Assembly: GCF_001458415.1 (NCBI RefSeq) | Contig: NZ_CYSD01000042.1 | Span: forward strand, 248,001-312,000 | DNA length: 64,000 nucleotides | DNA from: Tritonibacter multivorans | Lineage (GTDB): Bacteria > Pseudomonadota > Alphaproteobacteria > Rhodobacterales > Rhodobacteraceae | Reading direction: 5' to 3' | In this document: one piece after another, positions 2,689-64,000 of the stretch | Layout: each line of letters opens with the position of its first letter | How positions within the stretch are numbered: position 1 is the first letter of the stretch | The notes under the pieces: model-generated | The model's input: the letters and a program-made list of their open reading frames with translations, nothing else | What the model was told of the DNA's origin: nothing | Databases searched by the model: none | Position numbers and translations under genes: made by a program

Positions 2689-3843
2689 TTAGCGATTACT
2701 CGGAACGTTGTTTCCTTGTCCCTCGAGCGGATAAAAACAATCGAACTGCGGCGACAGTTTTAGGAAGTTCGTGACAGGTCGGCCAAGCAGGGATTGTTTG
2801 CGCCCAATCAGCGCCAAAGGCCCGGTGGTCGCGGCCCGCAAGGCGCGCTGGGCGGGCAGGCCAACCTGATCGATCAGAACGTGCACGGCGCGCAGCATAT
2901 CCAGATCGGCCCCAGCTAAGGTGCCGTCCTCCAGGGTCAGGCGCCCATCGCCGCGCAGCACCTTGCGGCCATTGAGCATAAACTCCCCGGCATCAGAACC
3001 AGCAACGGCCATGGCATCACTGACCAGAAAAACCTCGCCCTCAGCACGGCCCTTGGCGGCAAAGGCCAGCTGCATCATCTGGGGGTGCACATGCACCCCA
3101 TCTGCGATCAGCCCAGCCCACAGCCCGTCAATCCCAAGGGCTGCGCCCACCACACCGGGTTCGCGCCCCCTCATCTGGCTTTGGGCATTGAACAAATGGG
3201 TCACACAGCGCGCGCCAGCCTGCTGATAGGCCTGACAGGTGGCAAAATCGGTGTCTGTATGGCCAAGGCTCACCAGAACACCCGCCTGCGCCAGAACGCG
3301 CACCTGTTCGGGGGTGACATTTTCGGGCGCGATGGTGACCTTCAGCAGCGGCAGATTGCGCGCGGCCTGCAGCAGAAGCTGAAGATCGCGGTCTTCCATA
3401 GGGCGGATAAAGTCGCCTTTATGAGCCCCCTTGCGGGCAAGCGACAGATGCGGGCCTTCCAGATGCAGGCCAATCACACCGGGCGCGCCTGCGGCAATGG
3501 CGGCTTTGACCGCTTGGATGGCGGCCTGTGTGACCTCAAAGGTGTCGGTGATCAGCGTCGGCAGAAGCGCGCGGGTGCCAAGGCGCCAATGGGCCGTGGC
3601 GATCCGCGCAACGGTTTCAGATGTTGGGGCATCGTTCAGCAGCACGCCGCCGCCGCCATTGACCTGCAGATCGGTAAAGCCGGGGCACAGGATCACATCC
3701 CCGCAGTCCTCGACAGTCTGACCGTTCGCTATGTCTGACGCGGGCAGGATGGCGTCCAGCCCCTCCGTGCCAAAGATCAAGGCGTGGTCTGTCAGCAGCT
3801 CTGTCCCGTCAAAGACTTTGGCGGCGCGGAATATACCGGTCAT
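2689..3843 (-). CDS. nagA: N-acetylglucosamine-6-phosphate deacetylase
   Basis: 384-residue amidohydrolase that deacetylates GlcNAc-6-P to glucosamine-6-P in amino-sugar and peptidoglycan recycling. Family motifs seen are the early PGFTDLQVNGGGG segment, HLEGPHL, the LGHTDTD segment, THLFNAQSQM, and the C-terminal VSDAMAVAGSD region with the catalytic Asp. I chose the ATG at 3843 because it forms an ATGA overlap with the upstream kinase stop; a GTG two codons earlier (3849) is also possible. Translational coupling with the kinase gives a two-step GlcNAc phosphorylation/deacetylation module. Confidence 0.93.
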   Translation of the reverse strand: MTGIFRAAKVFDGTELLTDHALIFGTEGLDAILPASDIANGQTVEDCGDVILCPGFTDLQVNGGGGVLLNDAPTSETVARIATAHWRLGTRALLPTLITDTFEVTQAAIQAVKAAIAAGAPGVIGLHLEGPHLSLARKGAHKGDFIRPMEDRDLQLLLQAARNLPLLKVTIAPENVTPEQVRVLAQAGVLVSLGHTDTDFATCQAYQQAGARCVTHLFNAQSQMRGREPGVVGAALGIDGLWAGLIADGVHVHPQMMQLAFAAKGRAEGEVFLVSDAMAVAGSDAGEFMLNGRKVLRGDGRLTLEDGTLAGADLDMLRAVHVLIDQVGLPAQRALRAATTGPLALIGRKQSLLGRPVTNFLKLSPQFDCFYPLEGQGNNVPSNR

Positions 3844-54660: not shown

Positions 54661-56016
54661 TTAGGTTTCGCCCATCAGCGCCGGGTCAAACGGATAGCTG
54701 ATCAGGTTCTCATAGCCGTCTTCGGTGATCAGAACCTGCTCTTCCAGTTTGATCGAGAAATCACCGCCGACCTCGCCCACGCAGGCTTCTACGCACAGGA
54801 CCATGCCGGGCTCCAGCGGGTAGTCATAGGCGCCCGCGACGGCCTCATCCGGGTAGGCAACCAGCGGCCATTCATCGCACAGGCCCACCCCATGCATCAG
54901 GCAGCTGTATTTCTGCGCCTGATATTTGTCGGCCAGCACATGGGCGTTTGCGGTCAGATCGGGGATCATGACGCCGGGCTTCAGCATCTCCATATTGGTC
55001 ATGATGTGTTCGTGGGCGTGTTTCATCGCCTCGACCATATCGGGACGCGGCGCCTGATCGCCGATCCACCAACTGCGCGAAATATCGACACAGATCCCGT
55101 AAGAGCCGATCAAATCGGTGTCGAAAGAGATGATCTCATTGCGCTGCACAACCCGCGGGCCGCATTCCTGAAACCACGGATTGGTGCGCGGTCCCGAGGC
55201 CAGAAGCCGGGTTTCGATCCATTCGCCGCCGCGACGGATGTTTTCGGCGTGCAGCACCGCCCAGATGTCATCTTCGGTGGTCTGACCATCGCCTGCATTG
55301 GCGCGGGCGAAATCCTCCATCGCCTGAACAGCGGCTTCGCAGGCATGAACCGCGCAGCGCATCGCCTTGATTTCATCCACACTTTTGATGGCGCGGGCTT
55401 TTTCCGTCAGCTCTTCGCCGGGCAGAACAGTGAAGCCGACGCCCTCCAGCGACCGCAGCCCGTGCAGCATGATCTTGTCGACGCCAAGGCGCATATTGTG
55501 GCCGCCGTGTTCGGCGATCAGATCCCGCACCTCTCTGGCAAAACGGTCGGCGGCATCCCCGATTTTATCCCCGCGATCAAAGTAAAACAGATCCGCCCCC
55601 GACCGCCGTTCGCGCACCAGCGGGTTAAATTCCGACAGGAAGGGCGCCACCTTATAGTCCCAGATCACCATATGCCCGTCGGCACAGACCAAGAGCGCCC
55701 GGAACGGGTTATGCGCGTTCCAAAGCTGCATATTGGTGCTGTCGGTGGCATAGCGAATGTTCAGCGGATCAAACAACAACAGCCCGCCCCAGCCGCGTTC
55801 GGCAATGCCTGCCACCAGCCGCTGCCAGCGATAGCGGCGCATGGTGTCCAGATTGGGCAGGTCCAGCCCCACAGCCGCCCATTCGCCAAGCGCCAGCGGC
55901 GTTGGCCCGATCTCCACGCGGTCATTGTCATTTGGGCTACCGTCAGCCAGAACCTCTCCGCGCGTTGGGTCAATTTTGCGCCGGTCGCGAAAAGGGGACG
56001 GAAAAACTTGCTGCAT
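54661..56016 (-). CDS. dddP: Dimethylsulfoniopropionate lyase DddP (M24 fold)
   Basis: 451-residue M24-peptidase-fold enzyme that cleaves DMSP to DMS and acrylate. It opens with DRRKIDPTRGEV, and DPLNIRYATDSTNMQLWNAHN is typical of DddP. Predicted metal ligands D299, D301, D311, H375, E410 and E425 lie at a constant +4 offset from the six reported for the Ruegeria lacuscaerulensis enzyme (D295, D297, D307, H371, E406, E421), and D381 lines up with its catalytic D377 (recalled from the literature). AAGGAGGAG precedes ATG 56016; the frame upstream (to 56130) is not family-like. A palindrome lies 58 bp upstream. Confidence 0.95.
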   Translation of the reverse strand: MQQVFPSPFRDRRKIDPTRGEVLADGSPNDNDRVEIGPTPLALGEWAAVGLDLPNLDTMRRYRWQRLVAGIAERGWGGLLLFDPLNIRYATDSTNMQLWNAHNPFRALLVCADGHMVIWDYKVAPFLSEFNPLVRERRSGADLFYFDRGDKIGDAADRFAREVRDLIAEHGGHNMRLGVDKIMLHGLRSLEGVGFTVLPGEELTEKARAIKSVDEIKAMRCAVHACEAAVQAMEDFARANAGDGQTTEDDIWAVLHAENIRRGGEWIETRLLASGPRTNPWFQECGPRVVQRNEIISFDTDLIGSYGICVDISRSWWIGDQAPRPDMVEAMKHAHEHIMTNMEMLKPGVMIPDLTANAHVLADKYQAQKYSCLMHGVGLCDEWPLVAYPDEAVAGAYDYPLEPGMVLCVEACVGEVGGDFSIKLEEQVLITEDGYENLISYPFDPALMGET

Positions 56017-56073
56017 GGCTCTCCTCCTTTGCCATGGTTGCTGTGTTTCCACACGTCCCCTCAGGGTCAAACA

Positions 56074-56093
56074 ATTGGTGCCATCTGACCAAT
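56074..56093. promoter_or_regulatory. Palindrome ATTGGT-N8-ACCAAT upstream of dddP
   Basis: Perfect 6-bp dyad, 58-77 bp upstream of the dddP start. GntR/FadR-type operators often contain TGGT-Nx-ACCA, so a GntR regulator is possible. No regulator gene is adjacent. Confidence 0.5.
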
Positions 56094-56244
56094 CCAGCGG
56101 CGACATCCGCGGGCTGAATTTATGTCGCAAATGAAACCTAAGCGGCGGTTTCGGGCCCGGATGTCAGGTATTCCATCGCCAAAAAGCGCGCCGCTGACCG
56201 CAGTTTGTCGGTTGATTCCCTAACATAAAGCGCAGCAGACGCAA

Positions 56245-56266
56245 AAAGCGCCCGGTGGGGCGCTTT
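56245..56266 (-). terminator. Terminator after the 329-aa membrane protein gene
   Basis: On the minus strand: AAAGCGCCC / GGGCGCTTT perfect 9-bp stem, loop CACC, then TTG. It begins about 29 bp after the stop. Confidence 0.8.
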
Positions 56267-56294
56267 GAGATTTCGATGTGGGTTTTTGCTGCGC

Positions 56295-57284
56295 TTACTG
56301 CAAGGCGGCCTGGACGATGCCGGTGCCCTGGATCAGGGCCACTAAAGACAGCACCACCAGCATCTGCGCCCCATAGCGCAGGTCGCGGCTGCGCAGCAGG
56401 GTGATGGCCACGGTGGTCAGCGCCAACGGCACAGACACCAGCCCCACAACCAAAGTGGTTGCCCAGGTTGCAACCTGATCCAGACGGTTGCCACGGTTTG
56501 CCCCAAAGAAAGACGCGCGCAGCGACGTGCCCTGTGTCGGCTCGCCAATTTGGGCCTCTGGCGGCGTCAAAGTGCTGGCCAGTTTTTCGCAATGCGCAGC
56601 AAGGTCATTAAAGGTGGCATCCACCGGCGCAAAGCGGGCGCGTTTCTTAGGCTGCTGGACGCGGTCAGTCGCCACTGGCGCCATATCGAGCACCAGCTCT
56701 TCGATCTCGCGACCTTCGGCGGCAACGGTATCCACAAAGGCGTCATAAGCTGCGATCGGGGTTGTGTTGTCTTCCAGCAAAGGGGCGTTCGTCTCATCAG
56801 AGGCCGCCACACCGGGCGCTTCAAACGCCGACATAAACATGGCGCAATCAATTTCTGCGGCGTTGTCGATCCAGGCAACAGTGGTCGCGGTCTCCATCTC
56901 GCAGATCAGATTGTGCAGCATCATAGCCAGCAGAAGTTCGGTGATTTCCTCGTCCAAGTGATCGGGGAAATGGGGGTTCACCAGGATTTCCAGCTGGCTT
57001 TTGCAGGCCTCGCCATCCGCTTGACGCAGGGGCGTGGGGCTGCGGCGGTGACGCAGGTCCAGACGGAAGCTGTCACAGTCCAATTCGACCCGGTGACCGG
57101 TCCGTGCATGGAACTGATCAACGTCATGGCCGTATTCTTCCAGCGTCCGCATAACAATAGCCGAGGCGACCGAGAGGGTATTCGTGGCCCTATCGCAAAA
57201 GCCCAGCTTGACAGAAATTTTGTCAGCGGCGTCGCGTCGCGAGAGCGTTTCAAAATTAGCTTGTGCTTTTGTCTCTGTAGTCAC
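56295..57284 (-). CDS. Hypothetical membrane protein, 329 aa
   Basis: No family recognised. The roughly 260-residue N-terminal part is soluble, with ISVKLGFCDRATNTLSVASAIVMRTLEEYGHDVDQFHARTGHRVELDC and a helical ITELLLAMMLHNLICEMETATTVAWIDNAAEIDCAMF segment. Two TM helices lie at the C-terminus (TWATTLVVGLVSVPLALTTVAITLL and GAQMLVVLSLVALIQG), so it is probably a tail-anchored inner-membrane protein facing the cytoplasm. It starts with GTG, with AAGGAGG upstream. It lies between dddP and the Hsp70-like gene, on the same strand as both. Confidence 0.65.
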   Translation of the reverse strand: MTTETKAQANFETLSRRDAADKISVKLGFCDRATNTLSVASAIVMRTLEEYGHDVDQFHARTGHRVELDCDSFRLDLRHRRSPTPLRQADGEACKSQLEILVNPHFPDHLDEEITELLLAMMLHNLICEMETATTVAWIDNAAEIDCAMFMSAFEAPGVAASDETNAPLLEDNTTPIAAYDAFVDTVAAEGREIEELVLDMAPVATDRVQQPKKRARFAPVDATFNDLAAHCEKLASTLTPPEAQIGEPTQGTSLRASFFGANRGNRLDQVATWATTLVVGLVSVPLALTTVAITLLRSRDLRYGAQMLVVLSLVALIQGTGIVQAALQ

Positions 57285-57547
57285 CGCTAGGATCCTCCTT
57301 CGGCTGTCGATACAGAGAAACTTAAAATTTGATCGAGTTTAAAGTTGGGCGGCTTTCGTGCAATCGCGGCCATCCTGTGAAAAATACTTTAAAATCCTGA
57401 CGTCGGTAAAATTAATTTAAAAACAGATGGTTATGGGGATTTGTTGCTGCAAGATTACCGGAATGGGGCCAAAAGGCGGCGGGGGTTTGTCGAAAGCGGC
57501 TTACCGAACGGTGAATTCAATACAACAATGGTCAAGATTGCGGCGAG

Positions 57548-58795
57548 TCAGTCAAATGCGGTTTCCGAGGCAAGCGCAAGACCGTCTGCAACCGCTGTCA
57601 TTGCGCGCTCGTCCTCCAGATCTGCGGCAGGACACAGGCTGCTGAGCGCCGCGCGTACATCGCCCAAAAGCCCAGAGCCGCCGACCATTACGCAGCGGGT
57701 GATGTCTGACGGTGACACTGAGGCCGCGCACAGGGTCTCTGCGGCGTGGCTGCGGATGTCCGCGACCATGGGCGCAAGCGTCCTGCCCATTTTCTGCTGA
57801 TCCAGCGGCGCAGACAGTCCACGGCGCAGGACAGCAAGATCAATCCCCGTATGGCTGTCAGAGCCATTGGCGCGGATCTTGCCTTTCTCCACCGCAAAGG
57901 CGAGGTCATGGCCAAGTTCGTCTTCCAGCACGTCGACCAGCAGGTTCAGCTTGTCCGGCTCTACCGCGTGTTTGGCCAGATCCTGAGCGGTGCGGCGGCC
58001 TTCTGCACTGTAGAGAAAGGGGATCATCTGCCATGTGGCCAGATCATTGAAGATCCGGTTTGGCGCGGGCAGGGTGCCACCGCCAAAACTGTTGCGGATG
58101 TCACTGCCACGACCCAGCAGGGGCATGGCGTGGTCAATCGACAGCTGCCGGTCAAAATCGGTGCCGCCCAGACGCAGGCCGTGGCTGGACAGGATTTCGG
58201 TTTTGCCCTCTGCGTTCTGATGGAAGCAGGTGAAGTCCGAGGTGCCGCCGCCAATATCGACAATCAGCCCAAGACCAGCCCGGGGCCGTGCGGCGCGCAA
58301 GGCGGCTTCGGGTTCGTTCATGAACGTCACGTCCTGAAAGCCTGCCTTTATATAACAGGTGCGCAGATCAACCTCGGCCTGTGCATTGCGGGCCGCGTCA
58401 GCAGAGTGGAACCGCACCGGGCGCCCCGACAGGGCATGGGTGAATTCCATCCGGGTGGTGTCCTCGGCGCGGCGTTTCACTTCAGCGAGGAAACGCGCGA
58501 TGATATCGGTGAAATCCAGAAGTTCCCCGCCAAGGCGCCGCTTTTCGTGCAGCAGCGATGTGCCCAGCAGGCTTTTGAGCGCCCGCATAAAGCGGCCTTC
58601 TTCGCCATCGATCAACGCGCGCGTGGCGCTGCGCCCGATCCGCAGACTGCGGCGGTTGCTGTCAAAGAAAACCGCCGTCGGCAGCGTGGTTTCGCCGGGT
58701 TCCAGCGGCACCAGAAACGGCGTCCCCCCCACAGCCACACCGGCGGCAGAGTTCGAGGTGCCAAAATCGATACCAAGGGTGCGGGGCTGGGTCAT
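57548..58795 (-). CDS. Hsp70-like protein (YegD/DnaK-related ATPase)
   Basis: 415-residue actin/Hsp70-fold ATPase without the C-terminal DnaK peptide-binding domain. LGIDFGTSNSAAGVAVGG (phosphate-1), GLGLIVDIGGGTSDFTCF (phosphate-2) and CVMVGGSGLLGDVRAALSS (adenosine region) are clear. This places it in the YegD group of truncated Hsp70 proteins, whose role is unsettled. AGGAG precedes the start. Confidence 0.9.
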   Translation of the reverse strand: MTQPRTLGIDFGTSNSAAGVAVGGTPFLVPLEPGETTLPTAVFFDSNRRSLRIGRSATRALIDGEEGRFMRALKSLLGTSLLHEKRRLGGELLDFTDIIARFLAEVKRRAEDTTRMEFTHALSGRPVRFHSADAARNAQAEVDLRTCYIKAGFQDVTFMNEPEAALRAARPRAGLGLIVDIGGGTSDFTCFHQNAEGKTEILSSHGLRLGGTDFDRQLSIDHAMPLLGRGSDIRNSFGGGTLPAPNRIFNDLATWQMIPFLYSAEGRRTAQDLAKHAVEPDKLNLLVDVLEDELGHDLAFAVEKGKIRANGSDSHTGIDLAVLRRGLSAPLDQQKMGRTLAPMVADIRSHAAETLCAASVSPSDITRCVMVGGSGLLGDVRAALSSLCPAADLEDERAMTAVADGLALASETAFD

Positions 58796-58864
58796 TGCAG
58801 CATGCTCCTGCGCGGGAAGGGGGAGGCGTGGCGTACCCTATGTCATGTCTTGCTGCAACAGCAA

Positions 58865-58890
58865 AGGGGCGCCCTGTGGAAGGCGCCCCT
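58865..58890 (-). terminator. Possible terminator after the SDR gene
   Basis: AGGGGCGCC / GGCGCCCCT perfect 9-bp stem with an 8-base loop. The minus-strand tail TTTGCTGTTG is only moderately T-rich. Confidence 0.6.
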
Positions 58891-58962
58891 AAGATCTCAC
58901 GTGGTTGGTTTTCGGGGACCGGTACGTGAGTTTTCGTGTGAGTGGTTAGCAGCTTTGCGCCA

Positions 58963-59781
58963 TTAAAGGCCGAGTTGCGCCTTCATGCCACCGATAAAGG
59001 CCTCGTCATCGAGGTTTTTACGGTTGGTGAGAAGTTCCTCTGCATCCGCACCGGCACGGTAGCGCAAAGTGGCAGTGCCATCGGTGATCGCCGTCCAGAT
59101 CACGTCGGACACAACCGACGGCTGAGACACGGTGGTCAGGTTTTCGGGGCTCCAGGCTGCGAACAGTTTTTGCACAACCGGCTGGTATTCGGTCATCGAT
59201 TCGTCGTTGACGAAGTCGAAGGACCGGCCGCCAAAGTCGGTGGCAATAATGCCGGGTTCAACGATGGCAACTTTGATGCCAGCCGCTTCAAGCTCGTAGT
59301 GCAACGCTTCGGACAGGCCTTCAACGGCGAATTTGGTGCCGTGGTACAGGGTGCCCAGCGGGAAGGTCATCTGACCGCCGATGGAGGAAATGTTGACGAT
59401 GCAGCCGGTGCCACGTGCACGCATGTGCGGCACAACTGCTTTGGTCACTTCCAGCAGGCCGATCACATTGGTGTCGAACTGGCGGCGGATCCGCTCCAGC
59501 GGGAAAGCTTCGAGCGGGCCATAAGCGCCGTAACCTGCGTTGTTCAGCAGGGCGTCGATCGCGCCGAACTTTTCGATGCCTGCAGCAACGGCGGCTTCGA
59601 TCGATGCTGCGTCGGTCACATCCAGACGGGTGACCAGTACATTGTCGAGCTCTGCAAGCTCTGCGCCGTTTTCAACGGTGCGCATGGTGGCAATCACGTT
59701 CCAGCCTTTGGATTGGAACAGTTTTGCGGTTTCGCGGCCAATACCTGTGGAGGCGCCGGTGATGAGGATCGTTTGTGCCAT
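58963..59781 (-). CDS. Short-chain dehydrogenase/reductase
   Basis: 272-residue classical SDR. TGASTGIG (cofactor), NNAGYGAYGPLEAF, ISSIGG (catalytic Ser), YHGTKFAVEG (YxxxK). LSEALHYELEAAGIKVAIVEPGIIATDF follows. AAGGAGC precedes the ATG. Substrate unknown. It is divergent from the first gene of the tandem paralog array across 225 bp. Confidence 0.9.
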   Translation of the reverse strand: MAQTILITGASTGIGRETAKLFQSKGWNVIATMRTVENGAELAELDNVLVTRLDVTDAASIEAAVAAGIEKFGAIDALLNNAGYGAYGPLEAFPLERIRRQFDTNVIGLLEVTKAVVPHMRARGTGCIVNISSIGGQMTFPLGTLYHGTKFAVEGLSEALHYELEAAGIKVAIVEPGIIATDFGGRSFDFVNDESMTEYQPVVQKLFAAWSPENLTTVSQPSVVSDVIWTAITDGTATLRYRAGADAEELLTNRKNLDDEAFIGGMKAQLGL

Positions 59782-60006
59782 GGGAAGCTCCTTTGCGTCT
59801 TGAGGAGCAAATGGCGCTGATCGCGGTCAATATCAAACGCAGATCGTGCCAACTGACTTGCGGAGCGTGCCAATCCTGCCGTTGCGGTGCCAGGGCAGGC
59901 GCGTTTTTGGCTGAGGACAGCTCGAAAACCGGTCACCTCGCGGCAGAACAAACTGTTCCCCTCACGGTGGGCTTACGTTATCGTGGGGGTGTGTGTTGTT
60001 GATGAA

Positions 60007-60504
60007 TTGGGTTTTGGAGTTTTGGAAACAGCAAGTGACATCTCTCTGGCGCTTCTGCGAAACAGCGCGCAACCCTTGATGAATGGCGATTTTGCCAGTT
60101 TCTCGGCCTGTTTTAAACTTCCCCAGACCATCACAACCCCGCAAGGCATTCGAATGCTTAAAACAGCCGAAGATCTTCGTGTTCTCTTTGAGGAGGTGCG
60201 CGGCTATTTTGACAGCGAAGGGGTGAAGATGATCACCCGCAATTGCGTCAAGGCGGACTTCTCGGGGGAAGGGACCATTCTTTCGGTTCACGAAAGTTAT
60301 CTGCTCAGTCCCAAAGGGCTGCTGCGTCCGCCCTATCAGGTTTTTTCCATCCTGCAGCGCCATGCCGAAGGCTGGCATATCGCCTTCTCGGACTACGCGC
60401 TTGGTGACAGTCTTGAACATTGTCGCGCGCTCAGCACAGCGGGCGGCCCCCCAGAACCGAAGCCAGTCGCACCACATCCCCTCAGCCAGCAGAGCAGACG
60501 CTAG
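60007..60504 (+). CDS. Tandem paralog 1 (putative NTF2/SnoaL-like small protein)
   Basis: About 165 residues from a TTG at 60007; a GTG at 59989 is the alternative. The TTG is preferred because its first four residues (MGFG) align with MNFG in paralogs 2 and 3. Core: NSAQPLMNGDFASFSACFKLPQ, GIRMLKTAEDLRVLFEEV, VKADFSGEGTILSVHESYLLS, GWHIAFSDYALGDSLEHCRA. This order (paired helices, strand, helix, long beta-meander) fits the NTF2-like cone fold but is an inference. No signal peptide. It is closest to paralog 4 (FSDYALG). A Pro-rich C-terminal tail is unique to this copy. No Shine-Dalgarno site seen. Confidence 0.65.
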   Translation: MGFGVLETASDISLALLRNSAQPLMNGDFASFSACFKLPQTITTPQGIRMLKTAEDLRVLFEEVRGYFDSEGVKMITRNCVKADFSGEGTILSVHESYLLSPKGLLRPPYQVFSILQRHAEGWHIAFSDYALGDSLEHCRALSTAGGPPEPKPVAPHPLSQQSRR

Positions 60505-60617
60505 GGCGGGCAAAAAATGCGGGCAAAGTCGTCGGGGATAGGGCCAGTTTGTCGAAACTTTCGGTCTAGACGCAGACGGTCGTCGAAAACCTGACCCCAA
60601 AGCTGTATCTTTGCGAG

Positions 60618-61100
60618 ATGAATTTTGGTTCCAAATCAACAGGCGATTCAGCGGATGATATTGCGCTCGCGCTTCTCCATCGAAGCGCCGGCCCGTTGAT
60701 TTCCGGAGATTTTGAAAGCTTCGCGGCCTGCTTCCACCTGCCTCAGGCGATGGCAACGCCGTCTCGAATTCGAATTTTGAAAACCCGCGCGGATCTGCGC
60801 GAGCTCTTTGATGATCTGATGCAGTATTATCAGGTCAATGGCACCAAAATGGTCAGTCGCAGGTTGGTCAAAGCAGAGTTTATGGGCGAAGCCAGCGTGA
60901 TCTCGATCCACGAAAACATCCTGATCGGGAAGACCGGCGTCATCGCGCCCCCCTTGCAGCAGACGTCGGTGCTGCAGAAGAAAAACGGCAACTGGCGCGT
61001 GGGCTTCTGTGAATACACCCCGGCGGATGATCTCGATTTCTGCCGCGTTCTGGTCGGTGCGGCGGATGGCATGGCGCGGTCTTCGGCGCTGATGATTTAG
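60618..61100 (+). CDS. Tandem paralog 2 (putative NTF2/SnoaL-like small protein)
   Basis: 160 residues. ATG 60618 sits in AGATGAATTTTGG, an identical start context to paralog 3. Core: RSAGPLISGDFESFAACFHLPQ, RIRILKTRADLRELFDDLMQYY, RLVKAEFMGEASVISIHENILIG, NWRVGFCEYTPADDLDFCRVL. No signal peptide or TM. The stretch SAGPLISGDFESFAACFHLPQ is identical in paralog 3, yet the DNA there shows synonymous changes, so the duplication is old and the protein is under constraint. A 113 bp spacer separates it from paralog 1. Confidence 0.85.
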   Translation: MNFGSKSTGDSADDIALALLHRSAGPLISGDFESFAACFHLPQAMATPSRIRILKTRADLRELFDDLMQYYQVNGTKMVSRRLVKAEFMGEASVISIHENILIGKTGVIAPPLQQTSVLQKKNGNWRVGFCEYTPADDLDFCRVLVGAADGMARSSALMI

Positions 61101-61119
61101 GTTTGGGCCCGCGGCCTGA

Positions 61120-61144
61120 CCTGAAAACACATGCGTTTTTCAGG
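61120..61144. promoter_or_regulatory. Palindrome CCTGAAAA-N9-TTTTCAGG between paralogs 2 and 3
   Basis: Perfect 8-bp dyad 20 bp after the paralog 2 stop and about 113 bp before paralog 3. With no T-run after it, it could be an operator rather than a terminator, although TTTTCAGG leaves a terminator possible. Confidence 0.45.
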
Positions 61145-61256
61145 AATTACCTGGGTATTGGCGTCATTCCAGCACTGGTAAAAGTCGCGCAGATGGCGCA
61201 AACTTTCACCATTGGTTGTATCGATGACTGTGTAAAACGTGTTGAACGAGTGCGAC

Positions 61257-61712
61257 ATGAAGATGAATTTTGGACCGGACAGTGCAGCGGGTATCGCGCG
61301 GGGGCTTTTACACAAGAGTGCGGGGCCCTTGATTTCGGGTGATTTCGAAAGCTTCGCCGCCTGTTTCCATCTGCCGCAATCTTTTTCGACACCAGCGGGC
61401 ATTCGCATTCTGCGCACGCGGGCGGATCTGCGGTTGTTCTTCGACGATCTGGTGGATTTCTATCATCTCAGTGGCGCAAAGGTCATAAACCGCAAGCTGT
61501 TGCAGGCGGATTTTCTTGGCGAAGGCAGCGCGGTGTGCCTGCACGAAAACCGGCTGATTGGCAGCCGGGGCGTGATGCAGCAACCGGTTCGGGTGTTTTC
61601 GATCATGACGAAATGCGATCAGCACTGGGCTGTCAGCTATTGCGAATACACTCCTGCGGATAATTTGGATTACTGTCGCGCGCTGATGAGCCGACGGGAT
61701 TTCGCCCTTTGA
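61257..61712 (+). CDS. Tandem paralog 3 (putative NTF2/SnoaL-like small protein)
   Basis: 151 residues from ATG 61257 (MKMNFGPDSAAG); ATG 61263 is equally possible. Core: KSAGPLISGDFESFAACFHLPQ, GIRILRTRADLRLFFDDLVDFY, LLQADFLGEGSAVCLHENRLIG, HWAVSYCEYTPADNLDYCRAL. It pairs with paralog 2 (EYTPAD..D.CR). No signal peptide or TM. Spacers of 156 bp before and about 190 bp after. Confidence 0.82.
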   Translation: MKMNFGPDSAAGIARGLLHKSAGPLISGDFESFAACFHLPQSFSTPAGIRILRTRADLRLFFDDLVDFYHLSGAKVINRKLLQADFLGEGSAVCLHENRLIGSRGVMQQPVRVFSIMTKCDQHWAVSYCEYTPADNLDYCRALMSRRDFAL

Positions 61713-61767
61713 TGCCCTGTGTTGCGCGCGGAGTACAGGGCCGCATCTGGCGCGTTTCGCGCATTTA

Positions 61768-61784
61768 TTGAACGATCGTTTCAA
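61768..61784. promoter_or_regulatory. Near-palindrome TTGAACGATCGTTTCAA before paralog 4
   Basis: It contains the perfect 10-bp palindrome AACGATCGTT (61771-61780). The size fits a TetR-type operator or another dimeric regulator. It is 121 bp upstream of the paralog 4 start. Confidence 0.4.
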
Positions 61785-61904
61785 AAAATGTGGTAAGCTT
61801 GCCTGTGGCGCGGCCGGATCATGGGGCCTCAGTTGCGGACTGCCGGTGTGTTGTGTGGGGCGTCCCGGAAGGGCGACCTGAAGAGTGAGCGGGAGAGACA
61901 AGCC

Positions 61905-62411
61905 TTGGGGAACATGGGGCAGGGCGACCAGATTGCACAAGACCAATTGGTGAACCTTTTGGAAGGAACAGGCCGTTCCCTCTTGCAGGGCGGTTTTGAA
62001 GCCTTTGCTGCGTGTTTCCACCTGCCTCAGACGCTGACGACCACCGATGGGATGCGGATTATCCGAACCCGCGAGGAGCTGGAGCAGCTGTTTTACGACC
62101 TTCGCTCCTATTACAGTGAAATCGGTGTCCAGATGCTGACCCGCCAGCCGGTGAAGGCAGAGTTCACCAATGAATTCACCATTCTTGCGGTTCATCAGAC
62201 CTTTGTCATTGGTCAGCAGGGGTTGATGCGCGACCCCTACGAGGTGCTGACCATCCTGCAATATAAAGAAGGATCCTGGGCTGCGACTTTTTCCGATTAT
62301 GCGTTGGGGGGCGGGCTTCAGGAGTGTATTGAGCAAAGCCGCCTGCGCGCGCCGGGGCAGCTGCCGGTTTTCAACCCGCCGATCATTCGTGGCGCACGCC
62401 GCACGGGCTGA
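61905..62411 (+). CDS. Tandem paralog 4 (putative NTF2/SnoaL-like small protein)
   Basis: 168 residues from TTG 61905, nine bases after GGGAG; ATG 61914 is the alternative start. Core: GTGRSLLQGGFEAFAACFHLPQ, GMRIIRTREELEQLFYDLRSYY, PVKAEFTNEFTILAVHQTFVIG, SWAATFSDYALGGGLQECIE. Closest to paralog 1. A Pro/Arg-rich C-terminal tail of about 20 residues. It ends 117 bp from the convergent glnA. Confidence 0.8.
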   Translation: MGNMGQGDQIAQDQLVNLLEGTGRSLLQGGFEAFAACFHLPQTLTTTDGMRIIRTREELEQLFYDLRSYYSEIGVQMLTRQPVKAEFTNEFTILAVHQTFVIGQQGLMRDPYEVLTILQYKEGSWAATFSDYALGGGLQECIEQSRLRAPGQLPVFNPPIIRGARRTG

Positions 62412-62483
62412 CATTTGTGTGCCGGGGCCTTTGCTGGGGCGGCCACTGTCGGGGCCTGTTTCACTGTCTTTGGTCCAACACAA

Positions 62484-62507
62484 AAGGGCACCCGTTCGGG
62501 TGCCCTT
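62484..62507 (-). terminator. Terminator after glnA
   Basis: AAGGGCACCC / GGGTGCCCTT perfect 10-bp stem with a four-base loop (GTTC/GAAC). On the minus strand it ends TTTTGTG. It lies 21 bp after the glnA stop and could also end transcription from paralog 4. Confidence 0.85.
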
Positions 62508-62527
62508 CGTCTTTGATCCGCTGGGGA

Positions 62528-63934
62528 TTAGCAGCTGTAGTACAGCTGGTATTCCACCGGGTGCGGGGTGTGCTCGTAAGCTTCGACTTCTTCCATTTTG
62601 AGGTCGATGTAGCCTTCGATCTGGTCTTTGGTGAACACGTCGCCTGCCAGCAGGAATTCGTGGTCAGCTGCCAGGGATTCCAGAGCCTCACGCAGGGAGC
62701 CGCAAACGGTCGGGATATCGGCCAGTTCTTCTGCGGGCAGGTCGTAGAGGTTCTTGTCCATGGCTTCGCCCGGATCGATCTTGTTCTTGATACCGTCAAG
62801 ACCCGCCATCAGCAGTGCCGCAAAGCACAGGTAGGGGTTGGAGGACGGATCAGGGAAGCGCGCTTCGACGCGCTTTGCCTTCGGGGATTCGGTCCACGGA
62901 ATACGAACGCAGCCAGAGCGGTTACGTGCGGAATACGCGCGCAGAACGGGGGCTTCAAAGCCCGGGATCAGACGCTTGTAAGAGTTGGTGGACGGGTTGG
63001 TGAAGGCGTTCAGGGTCTTCGCGTGCTTCAGAACACCACCGATGAAGTACAGCGCTTCGTCGGAGAGGTCTGCGTATTTGTCACCAGCGAAAAGCGGCTT
63101 GCCGTCTTTCCAGATGGACATGTTCACGTGCATGCCGGTGCCGTTGTCGCCAGCGATCGGCTTCGGCATGAAGGTTGCAGATTTGCCGTACGCGTGTGCC
63201 ACATTGTGGATCACGTATTTGTACTTCTGCAGCTCGTCCGCTTGCTTGGTCAGGCTGTCAAAGATCAGGCCCAGCTCGTGCTGACAGGACGCAACCTCGT
63301 GGTGGTGCTTGTCCACTTTCATGCCCAGACGCTTCATGGTGGAGAGCATCTCGGAGCGCAGGTCCTGGGCTTCGTCGATCGGGTTGACCGGGAAGTAGCC
63401 GCCTTTGACACCCGGGCGGTGGCCCATGTTGCCGGTCTCAAACTCTGCATCGGTGTTCCAGGACGCGTCGGTTGCGTCAACTTCATAGGACACTTTGTTG
63501 ATGGAGTTGGAGAAGCGCACGTCGTCGAACAGGAAGAATTCTGCTTCCGGGCCCATGTAGGCCACGTCGCCGATGCCGGATGCTTTCAGGTAAGCTTCGG
63601 CTTTTTCGGCGGTGCCGCGCGGGTCACGCTCGTAGGCTTCGCCGGTGTCGGGCTCAACGATGGAGCAGTGGATGCAGATGGTTTTTTCCGCGTAGAACGG
63701 ATCAACATATGCGCTGTCGGTGTCCGGCATCAGTTTCATGTCGGAATTCTCGATGGATTTCCAACCTGCGATGGAGGAACCATCGAACATGAAGCCTTCT
63801 TCCAGGAAGTCTTCGTCGACCTGATCGGCCATTACGGTCACGTGCTGCAGTTTGCCGCGCGGATCGGTGAAGCGAATATCCACGTATTCTGCTTCTTCGT
63901 CCTTGACCAATTTCAGGAATGCTTCTGTAGTCAT
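62528..63934 (-). CDS. glnA: Glutamine synthetase type I
   Basis: 468-residue GSI. Landmarks: [11 protein letters not shown] near the N-terminus, [31 protein letters not shown] (ATP/Glu site), and the adenylylation loop NLYDLPAEE with the modified Tyr. It assimilates ammonium with glutamate to glutamine. A GGAGG precedes the start by 11 bases. Its upstream region, where glnB often lies, runs off the right edge. Confidence 0.96.
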
Positions 63935-64000
63935 TTGAAGTTTGTCCTCCGTCAGAAACTTGTAAGTCTTTGTTTTGTGTGTCTTAGAGAGCGTCCGATC

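Follow-up and report, generated by a model that had tools for sequence, protein, structure and literature searches.

What the four small, mutually similar genes lying next to the glutamine synthetase gene glnA might do for Tritonibacter multivorans (Rhodobacteraceae) is the question raised by the 64,000-nucleotide stretch of contig NZ_CYSD01000042.1 analyzed here (positions 248,001 to 312,000 of the forward strand of assembly GCF_001458415.1; hereafter the window, whose own numbering is used below). The initial annotation of this DNA had claimed four consecutive paralogous open reading frames (ORFs) on the plus strand at 60007-62411, and the ORF list together with BLASTP comparisons bore this out, the four ORFs being present and homologous. 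The best explanation of the array is a lineage-specific four-copy tandem expansion of a fast-evolving NTF2-like protein family, which occurs mainly in Rhodobacteraceae. Copy 1 (60007..60504, 165 aa) was read from a TTG start, and its start codon is uncertain: the open frame extends farther upstream, and the TTG is the only start at the point where the homologs begin. It is followed by copy 2 (60618..61100, 160 aa), copy 3 (61239..61712, 157 aa, or 151 aa from an in-frame ATG at 61257) and copy 4 (61914..62411, 165 aa, or 196 aa from the frame's first ATG at 61821), all encoding NTF2-like proteins on the plus strand. Depending on the starts chosen, the spacers between them measure 113, 138 (or 156) and 108 (or 201) bp.

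In pairwise BLASTP, the six pairs of array proteins showed 36-57% identity over 124-159 residues, with E values from 1.7e-33 to 2e-66; this similarity is far above chance, and the four copies are true paralogs. The motifs quoted by the initial annotation were also found in the four copies. Over the 149 shared codons, most differences among the copies fall at third positions, and the ratio of nonsynonymous to synonymous divergence (dN/dS) was 0.18-0.34 for all six pairs, although these ratios are rough since dS itself, at 1.5-2.7, is near saturation. As far as can be judged from the sequences, this rate pattern fits four constrained coding genes with signs of purifying selection. The 113-225 bp preceding the copies gave mutual base matches of just 7-9, and because these regions are hardly alike, the copies may be controlled separately. 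Scanning for promoters returned three matches against 1.2 expected, which was uninformative and was not used.

Phylogenetic analysis placed the array in one clade with a support of 100/99 in both a tree of 97 domains and a reduced tree of 27 rows, which supports an origin of the paralogs by tandem duplication. In the larger tree, copies 2 and 3 were sisters (100/99), joined by copy 1 (100/71) and then by copy 4; in the 27-row tree the array and the 2+3 pair each stayed at 100/99, and the grouping 1+2+3 dropped to 92/56. The nearest group to the array among the 97 rows was the first domain of six fusion proteins encoded between fadA and fadB, the site referred to below as the fad slot (97/88; bootstrap not settled). 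The previous division of the copies into pairs 1+4 and 2+3 was therefore correct for the strongly supported 2+3 clade, but 1+4 appeared in neither tree, yet was not rejected (approximately unbiased (AU) test, p 0.49). The idea, put forward along with these pairs, that an ancestral pair had duplicated in nested fashion was not supported, since the trees gave (4,(1,(2,3))), with the order of copies 1 and 4 unsettled. The YA of the FSDYALG motif carried by copies 1 and 4 is the usual state in the wider family, the A at position 131 being present in 23/27 and 25/32 of the nearer relatives (here and below, residue numbers are those of copy 1, and 97 rows were compared). Because it is so common, YA is weakened as a sign of kinship between copies 1 and 4, and may be a retained ancestral trait. 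On the sequence evidence, a single ancestral gene was multiplied in tandem into the four copies.

The family is patchily distributed. A profile built from the four copies matched 81 of 394 Rhodobacteraceae genomes, the host included, and a 36-row profile matched 141 of the 390 genomes, in 56 of the 139 genera, in a sample of the order; such tallies vary with the profile, the first one having missed the fad-slot copies of one genome (G061). None of 24 genomes from other families of the same class carried the family, and the four matches in a class-wide sample of 289 comprised two in Rhodobacteraceae (one of them the host) and two weak ones outside (E 2.3e-7 and 1.7e-4), so that evidence for the family beyond Rhodobacteraceae is thin. 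A scan of genome contigs returned one named locus with the family, in a metagenome-assembled genome of an uncultured member of Rhodobacteraceae. Within the host genus, the host alone among 18 genomes has it, and the 17 congeners do not (one of them, G014, being 67% complete). The family domains also diverge fast, their median identity over 342 common pairs being 32%, compared with 86% (FadA) and 77% (FadB); this comparison took the best-scoring domain per locus, and thus some pairs are paralogs. The host has a fifth, strongly diverged copy on another contig, adjoining a gene for a CtpA-type protease (named by eye). This copy (L120, 8023-8478) has a homolog in another genus (L083, 7832-8287) about 1.7 kb from a ctpA-type gene, and the neighbourhood is possibly a shared old location. 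In two further loci (L082 and L098), which belong to two genera, NTF2-like copies are embedded in operons of ribosomal protein genes (identified by eye).

A more telling context than glnA was provided by the homologs in other genera. Among 63 loci from 54 genomes, which were picked by best score or array structure so that their proportions give no frequency, 32 (in 32 genomes) carry one to five family domains between fadA and fadB. All 32 have the homologs on the same strand as both fadA and fadB, and in 31 the first domain starts 0-58 bp past the fadA stop. The typical operon comprises one or two MerR genes, an acyl-CoA dehydrogenase gene, a glutathione S-transferase (GST)-like gene, fadA, a variable number of NTF2-like domains, often a cupin gene, and fadB, the Pfam names being those of one representative of each gene. 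The slot holds one domain in 17 loci, two in five, three in seven, four in two and five in one, and 14 of the 32 have two domains in a single open frame. The genes of these related genera belong to the array's family by profile and tree, and occur there as tandem or fused domains, whereas in the array the four genes are separate, located elsewhere and without fad genes nearby. Thus the homologs in these slots, but not the array, lie where an accessory gene of a beta-oxidation operon would be placed. The host's own slot is empty, with 24 bp from fadA to fadB. In an unselected sample of 59 slots from 58 genomes matched by FadA alone, the host genome included, 10 contained the family (seven with one domain, two with two and one with three); this sample omits G063, whose fadA match was fragmentary, and G036 and G071, which gave no match, and takes two slots from G079. 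Mapped onto the tree, genomic context required 11-12 changes and was clustered, 11 changes comparing with an average of 29.2 in shuffles, none of 500 of which was as low, although near-copies help this result. Strand agreement, tight spacing and context clustering argue that the slot is more than a permissive site. In titles and abstract openings of the literature searched, subscription journals lying outside the coverage, no NTF2-like gene between fadA and fadB was found. As a separate observation, the fadA-fadB gap (L217-L275) looks like a swap slot that is empty or holds NTF2-like, cupin or Fic/Doc-like ORFs, and a 158 aa ORF in the L219 slot, whose profile match is not significant (E 0.16), could represent another NTF2-like protein that has diverged more.

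Two of the four copies were modelled with AlphaFold, namely copy 2 (pLDDT, the predicted local distance difference test, 71.7) and copy 4 (pLDDT 78.4), and these models, together with structure searches, supported the NTF2/SnoaL-like cone proposed by the initial annotation. Both models show helices followed by a curved mixed beta sheet forming the cone typical of the NTF2-like superfamily, with strong matches to solved structures, among them SgcJ, ketosteroid isomerase-like proteins and NTF2; proteins that did not appear in the match lists were not counted as excluded relatives. The best Foldseek matches were SgcJ and SgcE6 (PDB 4ovm and 4i4k; E 1.5e-8 for copy 2 and 5.7e-7 for copy 4), which differ from the array proteins in being just 11-23% identical to them. 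None of the four copies gave any match to the corresponding NCBIfam model TIGR02246 (SgcJ/EcaC family), which 2 of 36 family members matched at E <= 0.01, and no Pfam or NCBIfam model claimed any copy at its own cut-off. Copy 2 matched DUF4440 (PF14534) weakly (E 0.0011, 19.8 bits against a gathering cut-off of 25.2 bits) and is thus not a member, and copies 1, 3 and 4 matched no Pfam family. DUF4440, SnoaL_3 (PF13474) and SnoaL_4 (PF13577) are of the same fold class as the copies, and at E <= 0.01 matched 4, 1 and 3 of the 36 members, respectively; single weak Pfam matches among these members to Hpt, RIO1 and SR1P (E 0.006-0.009) were regarded as chance. By sequence, solved relatives gave weak matches alone, the best having E 0.41 with the four-row and 0.056 with the 36-row profile. 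The array family is accordingly an unnamed branch of a known superfamily, and the label "undescribed" given to it earlier is apt in so far as the four copies fall under none of the library models searched, but not in so far as they lie inside a well-known superfamily.

According to PMC13101464, NTF2-like proteins can act as dehydratases in lipid catabolism, as BaiE and SteC do, and PMC3924330 also describes non-catalytic, ligand-binding roles for the superfamily. In alignments BaiE was 9-10% identical to the array copies, with no common catalytic residue found; SteC is likened to them by description only, and for the ketosteroid isomerase-like proteins 3hx8 and 3bb9, LinA and scytalone dehydratase no catalytic correspondence with the copies was established. 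Among the conserved residues, Pro39 is present in 97/97 rows and Trp123 in 94/97, Arg78 is kept in 4/4 array, 27/27, 29/32 and 32/34 rows of the respective groups of the wider family, position 95 is His or Tyr in 90/97, and Tyr130, common among nearer relatives, gives way to other residues in the distant clade. The Asp28 column reads D, D, D, G in copies 1 to 4. As far as an alignment can show, this residue pattern is not suggestive of catalysis in the manner of ketosteroid isomerase.

Considering these results together, we tentatively prefer, at a little less than an even chance, to regard the array products as accessory proteins that bind acyl chains or acyl-CoA and are possibly lyases or isomerases; their genes would have been relocated and expanded. 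Each would be a cytosolic, probably dimeric cone with a cavity perhaps lined by Arg78, His95, Trp123 and Tyr130, which would bind a fatty-acyl or acyl-CoA-derived molecule. The protein might simply hold this molecule, serving FadA/FadB as a carrier, by sequestration or allosterically, or it might catalyze a simple dehydration, isomerization or hydrolysis, by analogy with the sterols handled by BaiE and SteC. Because the four copies have diverged and their upstream regions are unrelated, they would allow for several ligand preferences or expression conditions, and the array perhaps acts in trans for the gene absent from the genome's own fadA-fadB slot. A bolder version, possible though entertained with more reserve, is that the family is an unnamed beta-oxidation accessory. 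Its fast-diverging NTF2-like domains would multiply within the fadA-fadB operon by tandem duplication and fusion, to between one and five domains, and would adapt that operon to unusual acyl chains; in this genome they would have left the operon and grown into the four-member array. If so, Rhodobacteraceae, which are common in the sea, would carry an undescribed part of fatty-acid breakdown whose copy number varies between species; the operon position would offer a direct, testable clue to the function of a family unnamed in the libraries searched, and attention would shift from nitrogen, as implied by glnA, to lipid metabolism.

Several observations weigh against the assignment to fatty-acid metabolism. 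The array itself has no beta-oxidation neighbour, and because no fad gene is nearby, its own fatty-acid link rests on homology; the 27-row tree loses the link between the array and the fusion domains, though the link was not rejected (p 0.48). The family was absent from 49 of the 59 unselected slots and is hence dispensable there, and 31 of the 63 chosen loci, counting the array and the fifth copy, are not at fadA-fadB. Among 21 long family-free slots, 14 presumably hold a cupin gene and two a presumable Fic/Doc-like ORF, both recognized by eye from their motifs, and the slot may simply tolerate insertions. Furthermore, among the family-conserved columns no acidic residue is conserved in all four copies, and the placement of the conserved residues in the pocket is a guess.

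The site occupied by the array is itself variable. An interval of about 3.7 kb (58796..62510) between an Hsp70-like gene (57548..58795, minus strand; Pfam HSP70, 9.3e-18), which we take to be of the YegD type, and glnA (62528..63934, minus strand, convergent with the array) contains the array and a gene for a short-chain dehydrogenase/reductase (SDR; 58963..59781, minus strand; Pfam adh_short, 2e-49), which is divergent from the array and has a 225 bp upstream region in common with copy 1. Both flanks are kept in the congeners, where the Hsp70-like gene and glnA are neighbours; the two were on the examined stretch in 15 of 17 congeners, G001 (split glnA match) and G014 (contig end preceding the Hsp70-like gene) being omitted. 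Their gap, in lengths rounded because the Hsp70-like alignments begin at residues 1-6, was about 0.15-0.8 kb in nine of the 15 and contained about 1.1, 1.1, 1.8, 3.8, 7.0 and 10.2 kb of other DNA in the other six, and no family member was found in the examined Hsp70-glnA stretches. The locus closest by GlnA (L100, 99% identical) runs for about 1 kb past glnA to the contig end without the array. The SDR gene and the array thus fill a size-variable interval, and a gain in this lineage is a simpler reading than loss elsewhere. For the SDR, the best-scoring match in congeners was 39% identical, with some shorter ones up to 46%, and in other genera identity rose to 79%, a value reached in two genera.

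This variability bears on a quite different account, in which the family is positional cargo, mobile and mostly neutral or of niche value, that settles in permissive intergenic sites such as the fadA-fadB gap, the Hsp70-glnA interval, a ribosomal operon and the ctpA region, leaving the beta-oxidation link without functional meaning. It would explain why the fadA-fadB gap also holds cupins, Fic/Doc-like ORFs or nothing, why six of 15 congeners have 1.1-10.2 kb of other DNA beside glnA, why some homologs are seen by eye within operons for ribosomal proteins or next to other housekeeping genes, and why context changes 11-12 times on the tree. We nevertheless consider it unlikely, in view of the uniform strand in 32/32 fad loci, the 0-58 bp spacing after fadA in 31/32, a clustering of context beyond that of shuffles (11 against 29.2 changes, with some help from near-copies) and the maintenance of four copies at dN/dS <0.35. 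Possible but doubtful, in our estimation, is a reading in which catalysis plays no part: the proteins would sense small ligands or serve as assembly (hub) domains docking onto FadA/FadB or some other complex, and amplification would yield hetero-oligomers. The analogy is with the CaMKII association domains and the ligand-binding NTF2-like domains, and growth in tandem, fusion and rapid divergence are compatible both with diversification of ligands and with assembly of hubs; however, R78, H95 and Y130, being polar and kept in much of the family, would suit an active pocket as well, and fold matches by themselves reveal no function.

The neighbouring genes suggest two further explanations. The SDR and the array could form a small pathway, with reduction by the SDR combined with an NTF2-like cyclase or dehydratase, as in polyketide tailoring. 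The two share one interval and the common divergent upstream region, a close congener relative was found for neither, and at L083 another SDR (27% identical) lies divergently beside a family member. Such a pathway is nonetheless quite improbable: a close SDR (E <= 1e-75) occurs in 32 other genomes, and in the 11 of these that were examined around it (1.5 kb flanks) the family was absent there, while among the 62 other family loci an SDR at E <= 1e-10 occurred only in L083 and L155, both less than 29% identical. Extremely improbable is that the array consists of nitrogen-related accessory genes tied to glnA, the neighbour stressed by the initial annotation. It is adjacency alone that speaks for this, whereas the two are convergent with a terminator-like stem in between (62484..62507, plus strand; a consensus match only, of a type found nine times in the region against 5.7 expected). 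Moreover, glnA is present in 18/18 genomes of the genus and the family in 1/18, the 17 congeners without it all having glnA (G014 at 67% completeness), the interval beside glnA is size-variable, and glnA was found in 0/62 other family-bearing loci. A nitrogen or glnA role was rejected on this synteny and on the absence of glnA from those 62 loci.

Other origins and roles were likewise set aside. No match to a plasmid was obtained by tblastn with copy 2, no relative was found among viral contigs and PHROGs matches were only at E 0.066 or worse (a phage record collection lying outside this search), and PADLOC assigned none of its anti-phage defence families to the four proteins up to E 1. Between 58600 and 62800 no direct repeats longer than 21 nt bound the array, and Rfam gave no RNA element in 56000-64000 at gathering scores. 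In one congener (L111) the Hsp70-glnA interval contains, at about 3320-3675, an incomplete duplicate of the 3' end of glnA, as a gene-end insertion might leave, and the stretch after glnA in L100 contains a transposase-like ORF, recognized by eye. On the other side of the Hsp70-like gene, the window encodes an adjoining 329 aa protein (56295-57284, minus strand) without a Pfam match; relatives with 27-38% identity lie near the Hsp70-like gene in 12 of 16 congener stretches, and the protein is a possible partner of the Hsp70-like protein.

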